A DNA stretch of 64,000 nt from Falseniella ignava CCUG 37419 (GTDB lineage: Bacteria; Bacillota; Bacilli; Lactobacillales; Aerococcaceae): positions 661,979 through 725,978 of the forward strand of contig NZ_JH932301.1 of assembly GCF_000301055.1 (NCBI RefSeq), written 5' to 3'. Under the pieces are notes generated by a model, which worked only from the letters and a program-made list of their open reading frames with translations, was not told where the DNA came from and made no database searches. The first letter of the stretch is position 1. Each line of letters starts with the position of its first letter. Made by a program: the position numbers and the translations under genes. This document shows, one piece after another, positions 13,578 to 56,745 of the stretch.

Positions 13578-13598
13578 TTAAATAAATCAAAATAAAGA

Positions 13599-13634
13599 AC
13601 CGCTGGTCACAAAACTTGTGACCAGCGGTATTTT
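13599..13634. terminator. Bidirectional terminator between thrS and grdB
   Basis: A 14-bp perfect stem, ACCGCTGGTCACAA / TTGTGACCAGCGGT, with a 3-base loop. T-rich sequence follows on the plus strand, and the minus strand reads GGTTCTTTATTTTG, so it can end both convergent units. Confidence 0.85.
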
Positions 13635-13651
13635 GTTTGATTAAATTATAA

Positions 13652-16305: not shown

Positions 16306-16698
16306 TTACAAGTACCGAGGGGGGACTTGTATTTGACTTATAGCGCCTTGAATAATATGGAAGTCTACAACTGCAAAGTCCTCTAAGATTCGCTCATTCC
16401 AATCCGGAGTTTTACGCATTTCCTGGAAATGATCATAAACATCTATTGCCTTTTCCACAATGACTAAGCTCTCCATATCAACGGAGTGGCTTTTCTGGGG
16501 TGCCACGATGATTGACTTATAGACGGTCTCATTCGGTTTAATGCTGCCACTCAACGGGTGGGTAAGCAGTGCGTAAGAATTTTCGACGATATCACGGTGC
16601 GCCTTTAACAACACATCGCGATAAGATCCTTCAATAAAATCAATCGGGATATTATCGATTTCTTTCGCTACTAGGGGATTGTTCGTTATAATCTTCAT
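16306..16698 (-). CDS. grdX: GrdX family protein
   Basis: A small protein found at the head of grd operons; its function is unknown. The ATG chosen has ttaaggagtatt before it and gives the typical MKIITNNPLV start; a longer open frame upstream lacks a ribosome-binding site. The 130-residue product is soluble. Its visible features are ERLNAY-like family wording in relatives, not a catalytic motif, so no activity is assigned. It heads grdX-grdE-grdB and is preceded by a long leader with alternative hairpins and a strong promoter. Confidence 0.88.
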   Translation of the reverse strand: MKIITNNPLVAKEIDNIPIDFIEGSYRDVLLKAHRDIVENSYALLTHPLSGSIKPNETVYKSIIVAPQKSHSVDMESLVIVEKAIDVYDHFQEMRKTPDWNERILEDFAVVDFHIIQGAISQIQVPPRYL

Positions 16699-16759: not shown

Positions 16760-16820
16760 TTACATCACCGGTCAACGCGCCCGATGATGGATACTCGCTT
16801 GGATCATCATCTGTCCTATC
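16760..16820 (-). promoter_or_regulatory. grdX leader with mutually exclusive hairpins
   Basis: On the minus strand three segments occur in order: GATGATG (16805-16811), CATCATCGG (16781-16789) and CCGGTGATG (16763-16771). The middle can pair with the first (7 bp) or with the third (9 bp with one G-U), not both. The leader from the promoter to grdX is about 185 nt. I see no glycine-riboswitch consensus in it and no T-run terminator, so translational control or mere chance both remain possible. Confidence 0.45.
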
Positions 16821-22425: not shown

Positions 22426-22456
22426 GCGCCAAACTATGTTCAACATTTAAGAATTA

Positions 22457-22486
22457 AGCCCCACTCATAGAGTGGGGTTTTTGTTT
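22457..22486 (+). terminator. Terminator after grdA
   Basis: CCCCACTC-ata-GAGTGGGG followed by TTTTTGTTTT. Confidence 0.88.
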
Positions 22487-22577
22487 TGTGTTAAAGAAAA
22501 GAGATTAAAACAAATCCCCCAATCTGAGGTGACCCCCGAAAGTTAGAGTTAAAAACTAACTTTATGGGGGTCATTTT

Positions 22578-41967: not shown

Positions 41968-41969
41968 TT

Positions 41970-42022
41970 AAAACCCCATTTACTGGTACTACAACATTCG
42001 TAGTCAGTAAATGGGGTTTTTA
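41970..42022. terminator. Bidirectional terminator
   Basis: AAAACCCCATTTACTG / CAGTAAATGGGGTTTT form a 16-bp stem between convergent genes, flanked by A- and T-runs on both strands. Confidence 0.85.
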
Positions 42023-42033
42023 TATATAAGATA

Positions 42034-51836: not shown

Positions 51837-51870
51837 AATGTTAAGAAAACTATTTCTAGGAGGTAATCAA

Positions 51871-52383
51871 GTGAGTTTAGCATTACAACGTTTTGTTGAT
51901 TCAGGATTATTTAATGAGAAAGTGGCTGAAGAACTTGAAGCAGCTGCAGTACGTGGTGAGTCAATTATCGTAGCGGGAGACCGTTCAACAGGTAGCCGTC
52001 CATTAACAGCGATGATTATGGGATTAGTTAAGAAAAATCATGATGCAGTACAAGTACGTAAAGTAGAAGATTTAGAAAAAGAAGGTACTCACTACATGAT
52101 TTTAGGTATCGAAGGTGAAAAACTTGAAGATTTAGTAGCTAAAGCCTTAGAAAATCCTAATGCACAAGTCGTAACTGTTAAAGAAGCAGAAAACCCAATT
52201 TCAGTTAATAAAGTTTTAAAACAAAACTTCAAAAAACATGGTCATTCAGACCGCACTTTCTTACAAATCGAGTTGGATAAATTCCCTCGTAATGAAGATG
52301 GTGTACCATTCACAGATAAATTAACTCGTCTATCGGTTGATGAAAAAGGTAAAATCCAAAAAGAAAATATTGAATTCAAATAA
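51871..52383 (+). CDS. Unrecognised 170-residue protein next to yedE
   Basis: I do not recognise this gene. It starts at GTG behind ctaggaggtaatcaa; an upstream in-frame ATG at 51838 coincides with the promoter region and is rejected. The soluble product begins SLALQRFVDSGLFNEKVAEEL and has a glycine-containing turn IIVAGDRSTGSRPLTAMIMG that faintly recalls a P-loop but lacks the Lys. It contains no cysteine. Codon use is highly biased (repeated GTA, GAA, CGT), like the grd genes, which suggests strong expression. Divergent from yedE and upstream of the DsrE-like gene; a selenium link is by context only. Confidence 0.7.
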   Translation: MSLALQRFVDSGLFNEKVAEELEAAAVRGESIIVAGDRSTGSRPLTAMIMGLVKKNHDAVQVRKVEDLEKEGTHYMILGIEGEKLEDLVAKALENPNAQVVTVKEAENPISVNKVLKQNFKKHGHSDRTFLQIELDKFPRNEDGVPFTDKLTRLSVDEKGKIQKENIEFK

Positions 52384-52391
52384 TTCATTCA

Positions 52392-52427
52392 AGGACCTCC
52401 CAATCTCGTATGGGAGGTTCTTTGTTT
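52392..52427 (+). terminator. Terminator after the 170-residue protein gene
   Basis: GGACCTCCCA / TGGGAGGTTC (one G-U) with an 8-base loop, followed by TTTGTTT. It isolates the downstream leader RNA and DsrE-like gene as a separate unit. Confidence 0.82.
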
Positions 52428-52450
52428 ATTAATTTGTTCACGAAATAGGA

Positions 52451-52478
52451 TTGGTTACCTTTTCACAGTGTGATATAA
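52451..52478 (+). promoter_or_regulatory. Promoter of the leader RNA and DsrE-like gene
   Basis: TTGGTT, 16 bp, TATAAT. Transcription would begin near 52485, leaving a leader of about 260 nt before the next start codon. Confidence 0.6.
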
Positions 52479-52513
52479 TTATCGTATAAAAGAGAAGGAG
52501 GGGTGGTAGTGAA

Positions 52514-52691
52514 ATCAATATTCAAACAAAGGTTATCACATTGATGTCCAAGAGTGTCGTTAGTTAACGATTATGTTGTTGGGTTTCAATGAGATAATAA
52601 CTAAATATTATTTGATTGAAGCCCAATAACATCAAAGAAAAAGGGCACCTTCGCAGGTAAAACGGACCATGTGATGGTAACGAGTATTGAT
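52514..52691 (+). ncRNA. Candidate branched structured leader RNA, class unknown
   Basis: Nested pairings close the whole segment. P1: ATCAATATTC / GAGTATTGAT (52514-52523, 52682-52691). P2: GTTA+TCACAT / ATGTGA+TAAC with a 3-nt bulge (52532-52541, 52669-52681). P3: GTCC / GGAC. Inside these are three hairpins: TCGTTA / TAACGA (52557-52570), an 18-bp ATGTTGTTGGGTTTCAAT / ATTGAAGCCCAATAACAT extended by ATAATA / TATTAT (52573-52632), and ACCT-tcgc-AGGT (52647-52658). I matched it to no riboswitch class I know, and it is not tmRNA, SRP RNA or RNase P. No T-run terminator is seen, so translational control or an independent RNA is possible. Confidence 0.6.
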
Positions 52692-52746
52692 ATACAATTA
52701 ATTTCTTGTTGTAGTGTCGTTGATAAGTTTTTAAGGAGGATAAAAA

Positions 52747-53091
52747 ATGTCATATATTGTTGTATTAACGAGTGATGAAATGGGTCATAATAACCAAAGT
52801 AGTGAAATCGGTGCAAAATTAATGAATGCTTTCTTACATAAATTAACAGAACAACCAGAAATGCCAACGCATGTTTTATTATATAACTCAGCAGTATGGT
52901 TGAATAAACCTGATGCTCCAACTGTAGAGGATTTAAAAATTTTAGCCGATAAAGGTGTTAAGTTATTAACATGCGGTACTTGTATGAACTATTTTGAACA
53001 AGACCAAGAACAACTGCCAGTGGGTGAAGTTGGAAATATGGGGCAATTTATTGAAATTATGCGTGAAGCAGAAAGAATCGTTCAACCTTAA
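52747..53091 (+). CDS. DsrE-like protein related to the YedF C-terminal domain
   Basis: A 114-residue protein with a DsrE/DsrF-like fold: MSYIVVLTSDEMGHNN, a HVLLYNSAVWL strand and the redox-looking LLTCGTCMNYFEQDQ with a CxxC. It resembles the C-terminal part of YedF, the sulfurtransferase-like selenium-metabolism protein, but the usual N-terminal TusA domain is missing. The ATG follows ttaaggaggataaaa. It stands behind the long structured leader and ends at a shared terminator. Role in selenium trafficking is inferred from family and neighbours (yedE, two DUF3343 proteins). Confidence 0.82.
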   Translation: MSYIVVLTSDEMGHNNQSSEIGAKLMNAFLHKLTEQPEMPTHVLLYNSAVWLNKPDAPTVEDLKILADKGVKLLTCGTCMNYFEQDQEQLPVGEVGNMGQFIEIMREAERIVQP

Positions 53092-53148: not shown

Positions 53149-54342
53149 TTAACAATATTTATGGCGTAGTTTTTCTTGGGCTTCGACCATGGCTTCCATT
53201 TTGCGTTCAACAATTTGCATTGGATTCATTGGACGATTTTGGAACGTTGCAAATCCACAGTCAGGGTTCAACCAAATTCGTTGTGGGTCATCAATATATT
53301 TCATGGCCTGTTCTACAGAACCTATAATCTCATCTGCTGTTTCGATATGATCAATTCTTGGGTTGACGACACCAACGCCAAGGGCAACTTTATCTTTAAG
53401 TTGTGGGTTTTTGAATAGGGCATCAACTGAACCTGCACGAGGTGTTGACATCTCTAATGTTAGCATATCTGCATCAATTGAAGCAAAAAAGTCTGATAAC
53501 TTCTCATAGTTACCTTCGAGAAGGGATGATTCTTGACGGGTAAAGTTACCACGACAGACATGCAATTGGCTCACGACATTTGCATTTTTCATATCACTTA
53601 AGACTGGTTCAATTAAGTCATAAGCGAATTCTAGTTCTTTGCTCTCCAGAGCTCTCTCAGATAAGACACCTCAGTAAAAGGAACGCGCTGCGTCATTACT
53701 TGCAAAGCATACTTCTGCTAGAATTGGCTCATCTAATTGAATGACTTCAACACCAAAGTCAATTAAGCGTTGGATTTCATTACGAACAAGTTGTAAAATA
53801 TCTTTAGCCAAATCACGTCGTCCGCTATAATATTTTCCAGACAATTCTTTCACCCATAAGTTGCGGACTAGGAGGTATGGGCTAGGAACTGTTGCCTTCA
53901 ATGGTTTTTTAGTCATTTCACGCAGTTCCTTCATCTCTGGAAGAACAAATTCTGCGTTAACATCTAATTTACCAGTAGCGGCAGGACTGTTCATAGAATG
54001 GTCATCTGCATCACGCTCCGCTAAGCTCTCAGCAAAATCTTCTTGATGCTCTCCAGTCGTAATTTGTGTTAATTCCTCCGTACTGAACATGGATACGCCT
54101 GGGACATTTTGCGCAACAAATGAGATAAAGTTATCGCGGTGGTATTCACCTCCGGTAATCACATCGATGCCTACTTTTTCTTGCAACTGAACTACTTTCA
54201 TCGTTTCGTCATGAATAACTTGATTGTATTGACGCTGATCAATGCGACCTGACTTCAAGTCATCCTGTGCTTGGAATACTTCTTGAGTTCGTGGCATTGA
54301 TCCCATCAAATTCGTTGTAAACGGCTTAAAATCTTTTAACAT
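53149..54342 (-). CDS. MetE-like methyltransferase, probable selenoprotein
   Basis: A 397-residue cobalamin-independent methionine synthase family (MetE C-terminal type) protein, read through TGA at 53671-53673 (codon 224): AARSFY-U-GVLSERALES. Everything after the UGA is conserved-looking and in frame, including the zinc ligands QLHVCRGN (His261, Cys263), LTLEMSTPRAG (Glu297) and NPDCGFATF (Cys362); the N-terminal part has LIQLDEP-like VIQLDEPIL. A 5-bp hairpin GCTCT / AGAGC lies 18 nt past the UGA. With selC, selA, selB and selD nearby, selenocysteine is more likely than a nonsense mutation. The methyl donor and acceptor are unknown; the N-terminal MetE repeat is absent. The promoter overlaps a large palindrome. 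Confidence 0.85.
53641..53652 (-). promoter_or_regulatory. Candidate SECIS hairpin of the MetE-like gene
   Basis: On the minus strand GCTCTGGAGAGC folds as GCTC-tgga-GAGC (or 5 bp with a GG turn), starting 18 nt after the UGA, close to the spacing in selD. Short, so moderate support. Confidence 0.5.
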
Positions 54343-54687: not shown

Positions 54688-55080
54688 ATGATTTATCGCA
54701 TTAGTGAGTTTGCAGATAAATGTGGAGTTAATAAAGAAACGATTAGATATTACGAGAGAAAAAATTTATTACAAGAACCTCACCGAACGGAAGCTGGTTA
54801 TCGGATATATTCATATGATGACGTTAAGCGTGTTGGGTTTATTAAACGAATACAGGAACTTGGTTTTTCTTTAAGCGAGATTTATAAAATACTTGGTGTT
54901 GTAGATAAAGATGAAGTTTGTTGTCAAGACATGTTCGAATTTGTTTCTAAAAAACAAAAGGAAGTGCAAAAACAAATAGAGGATTTAAAACGAATTGAAA
55001 CTATGTTAGACGACTTAAAACAACGATGTCCAGATGAAAAGCAATTACATTCGTGTCCAATAATAGAAACATTAACATGA
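54688..55080 (+). CDS. merR: Mercury-responsive regulator MerR
   Basis: A 130-residue MerR-family activator: N-terminal winged helix YRISEFADKCGVNKETIRYYERK, a long dimerisation coil (about 85-118), and three cysteines typical of Hg sensors (CCQDMF near 79-80, RCPDE near 114, SCPI near 123). The ATG follows atggggtgaaataag. It lies 20 bp downstream of its own operator and is followed by merA in the same orientation, so it is autoregulated. It is part of the ISL3-bounded element. Confidence 0.93.
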   Translation: MIYRISEFADKCGVNKETIRYYERKNLLQEPHRTEAGYRIYSYDDVKRVGFIKRIQELGFSLSEIYKILGVVDKDEVCCQDMFEFVSKKQKEVQKQIEDLKRIETMLDDLKQRCPDEKQLHSCPIIETLT

Positions 55081-55104
55081 GACATTAACGAAAGGGGATT
55101 TTTT

Positions 55105-56745
55105 ATGAATAAATTTAAGGTAAATATTCAAGGAATGACTTGTACGGGTTGTGAAAAACACGTAGAATCAGCACTTGAAAAGATAGGTGCTAAAAATATT
55201 GAGTCTAATTTTCGTCGTGGTGAAGCAGTATTTGAACTGCCCGATGATATTGAGGTTGAAAGTGCAATAAAGGCGATTGATGAAGCAAATTACCAAGCCA
55301 GAGAAATTGAAGAAGTATCAACACTAGAAAACGTGGCGTTAATTAATGAAGACGATTATGACCTTCTTATTATTGGTTCTGGTGCTGCTGCCTTTTCTTC
55401 GGCAATTAAAGCTATAGAATACGGTGCAAAAGTTGGAATGATTGAGCGTGGAACGGTTGGGGGAACCTGTGTGAATATTGGCTGTGTTCCGTCAAAAACT
55501 CTTCTTAGGGCAGGGGAAATCAATCATTTATCAAAAGACAATCCGTTTAAAGGTTTACAAACATCCGCTGGAGAAGTGGATTTAGCTAGTTTAATCACGC
55601 AAAAGGATAAATTGGTGAGCGAACTTCGGAATCAAAAATATGTGGATTTAATTGATGAATATAATTTTGATTTAATTAAAGGTGAAGCAAAATTCGTTGA
55701 TGCTAGTACGGTTGAGGTCAATGGGGCAAAGTTATCTGCAAAACGCTTTTTAATTGCAACAGGTGCATCGCCTTCGTTGCCCCAAATTTCAGGACTTGAA
55801 AAAATGGACTATTTAACTAGTACAACACTTCTTGAGTTAAAGAAAATACCAAAACGATTAACTGTAATTGGCTCAGGATACATTGGAATGGAGCTTGGAC
55901 AACTATTTCATCATTTAGGTTCAGAAATAACGCTTATGCAAAGAAGTGAGCGACTTTTAAAGGAGTATGATCCTGAGATTTCAGAGTCAGTTGAAAAAGC
56001 GTTAATTGAACAGGGTATAAACCTTGTCAAAGGGGCAACTTTTGAGCGTGTTGAACAAAGTGGAGAGATAAAAAAAGTTTACATAACAGTAAATGGCAGT
56101 AAAGAAGTCATTGAATCAGATCAGTTACTTGTTGCCACTGGAAGAAAACCAAATACGGATTCTTTAAATTTAAGTGCAGCAGGTGTTGAAACTGGAAAAA
56201 ATAATGAAATCCTGATCAATGATTTTGGTCAAACAAGTAATGAAAAGATTTATGCAGCAGGAGATGTGACGTTAGGACCGCAATTTGTATATGTAGCAGC
56301 CTATGAAGGTGGAATTATTACTGATAATGCTATCGGTGGATTAAACAAAAAAATAGATTTATCGGTAGTTCCTGCTGTTACGTTTACGAATCCGACGGTT
56401 GCAACGGTTGGTTTAACAGAAGAACAAGCAAAAGAGAAAGGGTATGATGTGAAGACATCTGTATTACCTTTAGATGCTGTTCCAAGAGCAATTGTAAACC
56501 GTGAAACAACCGGTGTATTTAAACTAGTAGCAGATGCAGAAACACTAAAAGTATTAGGGGTTCACATTATATCTGAGAATGCAGGAGATGTCATCTATGC
56601 AGCATCATTAGCTGTTAAATTTGGCTTAACGATAGAAGATTTAACAGAAACCCTAGCACCATATTTAACAATGGCTGAAGGGCTAAAATTAGCTGCACTT
56701 ACGTTCGATAAAGATGTTTCGAAATTATCTTGTTGTGCAGGCTAA
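55105..56745 (+). CDS. merA: Mercuric reductase MerA
   Basis: Reduces Hg(II) to volatile Hg(0) with NADPH in the cytosol. The 546-residue flavoprotein has an N-terminal heavy-metal domain (about 1-70; [15 protein letters not shown]), FAD-binding [14 protein letters not shown], the redox-active [19 protein letters not shown], an NADPH-binding [14 protein letters not shown] and the C-terminal Hg-relaying cysteine pair LSCCAG. It follows merR by 24 bp with aaagggg. No transporter gene merT/merP and no merB are seen, so uptake must rely on other systems. Cargo of the ISL3 element. Confidence 0.96.

Follow-up and report, generated by a model that had tools for sequence, protein, structure and literature searches.

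A predicted strand-specific RNA fold with a short reading frame upstream of a yedF-like selenium gene of Falseniella ignava CCUG 37419

The plus strand at 52514-52691 of the 64,000-nucleotide stretch of the Falseniella ignava CCUG 37419 genome analysed here (the window) contains, as a prediction, a real, strand-specific and statistically strong RNA fold, located upstream of a yedF-like gene. The earlier note on this DNA had proposed a branched leader RNA before a DsrE-like selenium gene, and a structured RNA leader that is specific to one strand and precedes a DsrE gene of the YedF type is supported. Our tentative explanation, to which we assign somewhat less than an even chance, is that positions 52486-52740 form a lineage-specific, structured, cis-acting 5' leader of the yedF messenger that includes a leader open reading frame (ORF). 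The fold, its strand bias and significance, the single copy of the element, its absence from the genomes searched and the signals of the leader ORF were computed here; transcription of the leader, translation of its ORF and an effect on yedF are what we infer.

The 114-amino-acid protein encoded at 52747-53091 scored 108.2 bits against TIGR03527 (YedF), just under the cut-off of 110, and also matched Pfam DsrE; full-length YedF has an additional N-terminal SirA-like domain, as an excerpt of PMC5322559 states. The gene is preceded by a gap of 363 nt and adjoined by yedE and a Se/S carrier-like gene, in surroundings rich in selenium genes. Genes for selB, selA, grdG and tRNA-Sec are found elsewhere in the window, and in-frame UGA codons are present within it in selD, in grdF and in a GrdA-like frame (named by eye rather than by family search). 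The organism decodes UGA as selenocysteine (Sec), since selA, selB, selD and tRNA-Sec are encoded together with in-frame UGA in GrdF, SelD and the GrdA-like frame. The principal features of the locus are:

52391..52422, plus strand: terminator-like hairpin after the upstream 181-aa gene
52451..52479, plus strand: promoter-like site read by eye, -35 TTGGTT and -10 TATAAT separated by 17 nt, a TG lying one base upstream of the -10
52495..52501, plus strand: AAGGAGG, ribosome-binding site (RBS) of the leader ORF, most of it base-paired in outer stem P0 of the predicted fold
52509..52544, plus strand: leader ORF, GTG plus 10 codons (VKSIFKQRLSH), with UGA at 52542-52544 and UGU (Cys) as the next codon
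52733..52739, plus strand: AAGGAGG, RBS of yedF
52747..53091, plus strand: yedF-like gene, stand-alone DsrE-type domain, 114 aa

Several neighbouring genes were also noted. The 181-aa gene between yedE and the leader (51838-52383, plus strand) gave no match in NCBIfam and none of significance in Pfam. Two neighbouring frames at 53149-54342 (minus strand) correspond to the N- and C-terminal parts of one family of the cobalamin-independent methionine synthase type, and this gene looks broken between 53593 and 53670. Genes for MerR and mercuric reductase (54688-56745, plus strand) adjoin the yedE/yedF selenium genes, and behind them lies an ISL3-type transposase gene, approximately 4 kb from the leader.

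The terminator-like hairpin at 52391-52422, after the 181-aa gene, suggests that the leader is a transcription unit separate from that gene, and a terminator scan found no terminator inside the leader or between the element and yedF. The promoter that had been claimed before the leader was recognized by eye as a promoter-like site with -35 TTGGTT (52451-52456), a 17-nt spacer and the extended -10 TGATATAAT ending at 52479, from which transcription would be expected to start near 52486; the site is absent from a consensus scan because its -35 matches at only three of six positions. The promoter spacer includes a perfect 11-bp palindrome, TCACAGTGTGA (52463-52473). Its candidacy as an operator was rejected, as no regulon emerged: sequences with at most one mismatch occur at five places, versus five for a reversed control pattern. 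The 12-mer of this palindrome has no other exact copy in the genome.

The stems and hairpins discussed below are:

52493..52511, plus strand: P0 5' arm, outer stem with many G-U pairs, partner 52693-52712, from the predicted fold of 52487-52745
52514..52523, plus strand: P1 5' arm, 10-bp closing stem
52531..52549, plus strand: h0, local hairpin of 2+5 bp, weak, equalled by 31% of shuffles
52532..52541, plus strand: P2 5' arm, stem of the earlier note, partner 52669-52681, outside the predicted fold
52546..52549, plus strand: P3 5' arm, stem of the earlier note, partner 52664-52667, outside the predicted fold
52556..52571, plus strand: h1, hairpin of 6 bp with loop AGUU, the loop 17 nt from the leader UGA
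52573..52632, plus strand: h2, long hairpin of 18+8 bp
52647..52678, plus strand: h3, local hairpin of 3+5+3 bp, equalled by 2.7% of shuffles
52682..52691, plus strand: P1 3' arm
52693..52712, plus strand: P0 3' arm

The transcribed strand is predicted to fold into a branched RNA, with the 10-bp stem and a G-U-rich outer extension as its closure, which would enclose three local hairpins, the first two of them small, and, between the second and the third, a very stable hairpin of 26 bp. The plus strand of 52514-52691 folds to -62.4 kcal/mol (z -7.9, with none of 200 shuffles as stable) and the minus strand to -40.1 kcal/mol; the difference is -22.3 kcal/mol, a value that 6 of 1064 equally long sliding windows reach or exceed in absolute terms, and one of the six (52561) overlaps the element. 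After removal of the long hairpin, 3 of 1000 shuffles were as stable as the remaining fold, and the outer stem (P1 plus its extension) was equalled or bettered by 0.85% of 2000 shuffles. By the shuffle frequencies listed above, the fold of h3 is moderately significant and that of h0 is not. Both strands of 17 intergenic gaps were compared, the gaps being hand-picked (13578-13651, 41968-42033 and 53593-53670 are among those left out), and the leader gap had the lowest z of these 34 gap-strands (-9.8), lower than the stretches that hold tRNA-Sec and tmRNA; all of these gap z-scores are inflated because the best window per gap was taken, and a fixed-grid sliding z-score, with windows not centred on the element, was -2.0 at this place. 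The second-lowest z of the gaps tested (-7.2) belongs to 22426-22577 (plus strand), the gap that separates the GrdA-like frame from a transposase-like one.

The earlier note had described nested stems of 10, 10 and 4 bp, of which the closing 10-bp stem (52514-52523/52682-52691) holds and the two inner stems fail. The inner 10-bp stem (GUUAUCACAU/AUGUGAUGGUAAC, with a 3-nt bulge) and the 4-bp stem (GUCC/GGAC) are complementary, yet they lie outside the predicted fold, in which their segments are instead part of the local hairpins at 52531-52549 and 52647-52678. When P2 and P3 were forced, the energy was -55.8 versus -62.4 kcal/mol, a cost of 6.6 kcal/mol; their pair probabilities are at most 0.01, and 11.5% of shuffles gave as good a P2/P3 duplex. 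The nested three-stem arrangement was rejected as the dominant fold on the grounds of its energy cost, its pair probabilities and the shuffles. Other particulars were recovered with small corrections: the long hairpin has 18+8 bp (52573-52632) rather than 18+6, G-U pairs make up 7 of the 61 pairs in the stems, and the element ends 41 nt, rather than about 50, before the AAGGAGG at 52733.

A new observation, going beyond the earlier note, is a probable 11-codon ORF in the leader. Its signals consist of AAGGAGG, a spacing of 7 nt, GTG at 52509, 11 codons and an in-frame UGA stop, that is, an RBS properly spaced from a start codon and followed by a stop in frame. The sequence AAGGAGG occurs 12 times in the window (both strands), nine times with a start codon 4-11 nt downstream. 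Eight of these nine pairs head open frames of at least 114 codons, three of which (selB, grdF and yedF) were compared with protein families, and the ninth is the leader ORF, whose 7-nt spacing is the same as that of several of the others. The leader ORF is likely to be translated, because the other eight AAGGAGG-start pairs all head frames of such length. Its codons 3-5 share nucleotides with the 5' arm of P1, and its RBS is mostly paired with 52693-52712 in the predicted ensemble of the full leader.

The leader would most likely act in cis on yedF expression. Since the outer stem is predicted to pair with the RBS of the leader ORF, ribosomes entering the ORF would have to open the closing stem, and an elongating ribosome would melt the codons that overlap P1. 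The balance between ribosome entry and folding could set the lifetime or the processing of the mRNA. The long hairpin would be a plausible substrate of a double-strand-specific RNase, and mRNA stability or cleavage of this 26-bp hairpin is the simplest guess for the route from the leader to yedF. A cis-acting leader is favoured by the z-score of the fold and its plus-strand bias, by the leader ORF signals with their paired RBS, and by a terminator-like site that separates the upstream gene while none separates yedF. Against it, no homologue was found in the genomes searched, the 11 stand-alone yedF loci of relatives do without such an element, and the modelled ribosome positions leave the exposure of the yedF RBS as it was: a ribosome modelled at either leader stop caused no change. 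Blocking of the leader RBS itself was the only modelled state that altered this exposure, and slightly; no masking of the yedF RBS dependent on the leader fold was found, its exposure being nearly constant over the modelled states.

A second leader ORF was noted on the minus strand at 16772-16810 (coordinates calculated by hand), ahead of grdX, with which the sarcosine reductase cluster begins; it has the RBS AAGGAG, the sequence MMIQASIHHRAR and the stop UGA, and grdX itself probably starts at an ATG near 16698 instead of at the TTG that is listed. The window has 24 genes preceded by a gap of 60 nt or more, and in two cases, yedF and grdX, that gap contains an RBS-led short ORF. Both ORFs have 11-12 codons ending in UGA and both genes belong to the selenium/Stickland gene set, but the shared ending is a lead rather than evidence, because UGA stops 21 of the 46 RBS-led short ORFs that were listed, some entries of which overlap.

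A search of 52380-52760 with 4227 Rfam 15 families gave no match at or above the gathering threshold, and the best matches below it came mostly from microRNA models that aligned with the long hairpin and, at 13-26 bits, fell well short of their cut-offs; the assignment to no known class is thus borne out by the covariance-model search. The element is present as a single copy in its genome, and plasmid and phage sequences contain no match to it beyond 25-31 nt. Its ends form a 10-bp terminal inverted repeat, and no target duplication was seen by eye. Identification as a mobile or scattered repeat (MITE) was rejected on the basis of the one genome copy and the lack of a substantial match among plasmids or phages.

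The genus is represented by one genome in the comparison set, and in 76 genomes of the family a search at the nucleotide level gave nothing elsewhere beyond fragments of approximately 20-40 nt. Covariance models were built from the single sequence, R1 with the predicted fold and R2 with the fold of the earlier note; the window matched itself at 225.9 bits (R1) and 228 bits (R2), and all other matches were at most 20.5 bits. Searches with R1 gave matches in 2 of 395 genomes of the order (E ≤ 1) and in 2 of 398 genomes of the phylum (E ≤ 0.1), none of them convincing. The search of yedF-bearing genomes that the earlier note had recommended (R1, laxer filters, E ≤ 1) matched 5 of 39 genomes, in none of them near yedF, and yielded no convincing homologue. 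R2 found only the window itself in the 76 family genomes (E ≤ 0.1). Exact core patterns of 16-18 nt were found in 2, 5 and 0 stretches of genome and viral contigs, and the seven loci contain no R1 match; a protein scan of the genome contigs found no near YedF relatives. These negatives are no proof of absence, because a model built from one sequence has little power to detect diverged relatives. Within the genomes searched, the element is confined to one lineage.

Stand-alone yedF loci (11 among the matches listed, drawn from 26 yedF loci of the family search and new ones of the order search, each search being limited to 30 loci) are in 8 cases located directly behind the apparent end of selD, as judged by eye, and in 3 cases preceded by a gap of their own; none of the 11 matches R1. 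The earlier note had named two outcomes that would count against its leader RNA, and one of them was encountered, as all 11 of these loci lack the element; yet the other was not, the element being single-copy and no scattered repeat. As no homologue was found, there is no covariation and no evidence of selection, for or against conservation. In the literature searched, with most subscription journals outside its scope, no account of an RNA leader for yedF or of a Sec-decoding bacterial leader ORF was found, nor any description of how yedF is regulated.

The UGA of the leader ORF was compared with limits for bacterial SECIS elements that excerpts of PMC13188914 give as a loop of 3-9 nt, a stem of 4-16 bp, G in the first two loop bases, a distance of 16-37 nt from the UGA and an energy of -7.5 kcal/mol or lower. 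It passes, with loop AGUU, a 6-bp stem, 17 nt and -8.0 kcal/mol, as do 160 of the 2851 UGAs in the window (5.6%). Among the controls grdF passes and selD and grdA fail; the test discriminates poorly, because the Sec codons of the latter two are likely genuine. The pattern RBS-start-UGA-UGY occurs at eight places genome-wide, and by eye only the leader ORF has the UGA in frame.

The main rival to the cis-acting leader is a stretch without function, fortuitous or decaying inverted repeats in a 5' UTR such as the relic of a mobile element, with P1 as its terminal repeats and h2 as an internal palindrome. We consider it unlikely, though deserving of real weight. The restriction to a single lineage with no relatives found, the 10-bp terminal inverted repeat and the ISL3-type transposase gene about 4 kb away would all suit such a relic, but it has a single genome copy without a target duplication visible by eye, plasmid and phage matches do not extend beyond 25-31 nt, and G-U pairs are kept on the plus strand, the minus strand folding 22 kcal/mol worse. 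The earlier note had suggested a sensor of a selenium or sulfur compound or a separate RNA, readings whose positive support is limited to location and shape. Riboswitch aptamers are normally conserved across many species, and here no relatives were found in the genomes searched, hence no conserved aptamer with covariation in several species, and no Rfam class applies. A riboswitch of unknown class that alternates between the fold with local hairpins and the one with nested stems (P2+P3) would agree with the position upstream of yedF and with two alternative folds made from the same segments. It is nevertheless rather improbable: the P2/P3 duplex is equalled by 11.5% of shuffles, and the reading is unsupported because no expression platform is visible, neither a terminator nor a masking of the RBS that depends on the fold. 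An independent small RNA, cleaved out of the yedF messenger to act in trans, is about as improbable or slightly more so. The compact closed fold with a promoter-like site of its own speaks for it, and the lack of an intrinsic terminator at the 3' end of the element, of a second copy and of conservation speaks against it.

Two further explanations concern what the leader frame encodes. If its UGA were read as Sec by means of the SECIS-like hairpin, the supply of Sec-tRNA would set how far ribosomes reach: with plentiful Sec-tRNA and SelB they would proceed 15 codons further, through h1 into the long hairpin, and the translation state of the leader would convey selenium status to the selenium gene that follows. 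The organism does decode Sec, the UGA passes the SECIS test and is followed by UGU, and this is the only in-frame case among the eight genome-wide RBS-start-UGA-UGY matches. A 5.6% background of passing UGAs is not rare, however, the likely genuine Sec codons of selD and grdA fail the same test, and there is neither a homologue in the genomes searched nor an effect on the yedF RBS in the model, so that we regard Sec decoding in the leader as very improbable. Scarcely credible is a remnant of the SirA/TusA-like N-terminal domain of full-length YedF. It was considered for the stand-alone DsrE domain of the neighbouring gene and for a leader frame that reads V-K-x-I ... C-P, but the matches from tblastn with 18 YedF N-terminal parts were all short, scored no more than 17.3 bits and were out of order along the leader, and there was no Pfam match at E values up to 10; a cut-down SirA/TusA domain was rejected on these results.

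Should the leader act on yedF, this selenium gene of a Sec-decoding relative of lactic acid bacteria would have a control point at the level of RNA. If the leader is inert, the case would still show that a fold of very high significance in a single sequence may be an orphan, and that the significance of a fold alone is no ground for calling an RNA a riboswitch. In the selAB leader of E. coli, a SECIS-like element, a hairpin that binds SelB, serves as selenium feedback; the yedF leader likewise places a candidate SECIS-like hairpin before a selenium gene, although yedF is a different gene and SelB binding and feedback are hypothetical here. In common with the bacterial SECIS elements of the excerpts of PMC13188914, the hairpin has its loop 17 nt after a UGA and, at one of the first two loop positions, a G with a U after it. 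Unlike them, it sits in a leader ORF rather than in a selenoprotein, and 5.6% of UGAs pass equally. The yedF leader resembles riboswitch aptamers in its predicted branched shape, its closure by a P1-type stem and its place at the 5' end of a messenger, and differs from them in having no relatives, known class or demonstrated conserved core. Ribosome-responsive leader ORFs in structured bacterial 5' UTRs are familiar from attenuation and leader-peptide control. The yedF leader departs from these in that no terminator, masked downstream RBS or conservation was found, and it is like them in its short ORF with a strong RBS, its strong fold, the metabolic gene behind it and the overlap of the ORF with the closing stem.
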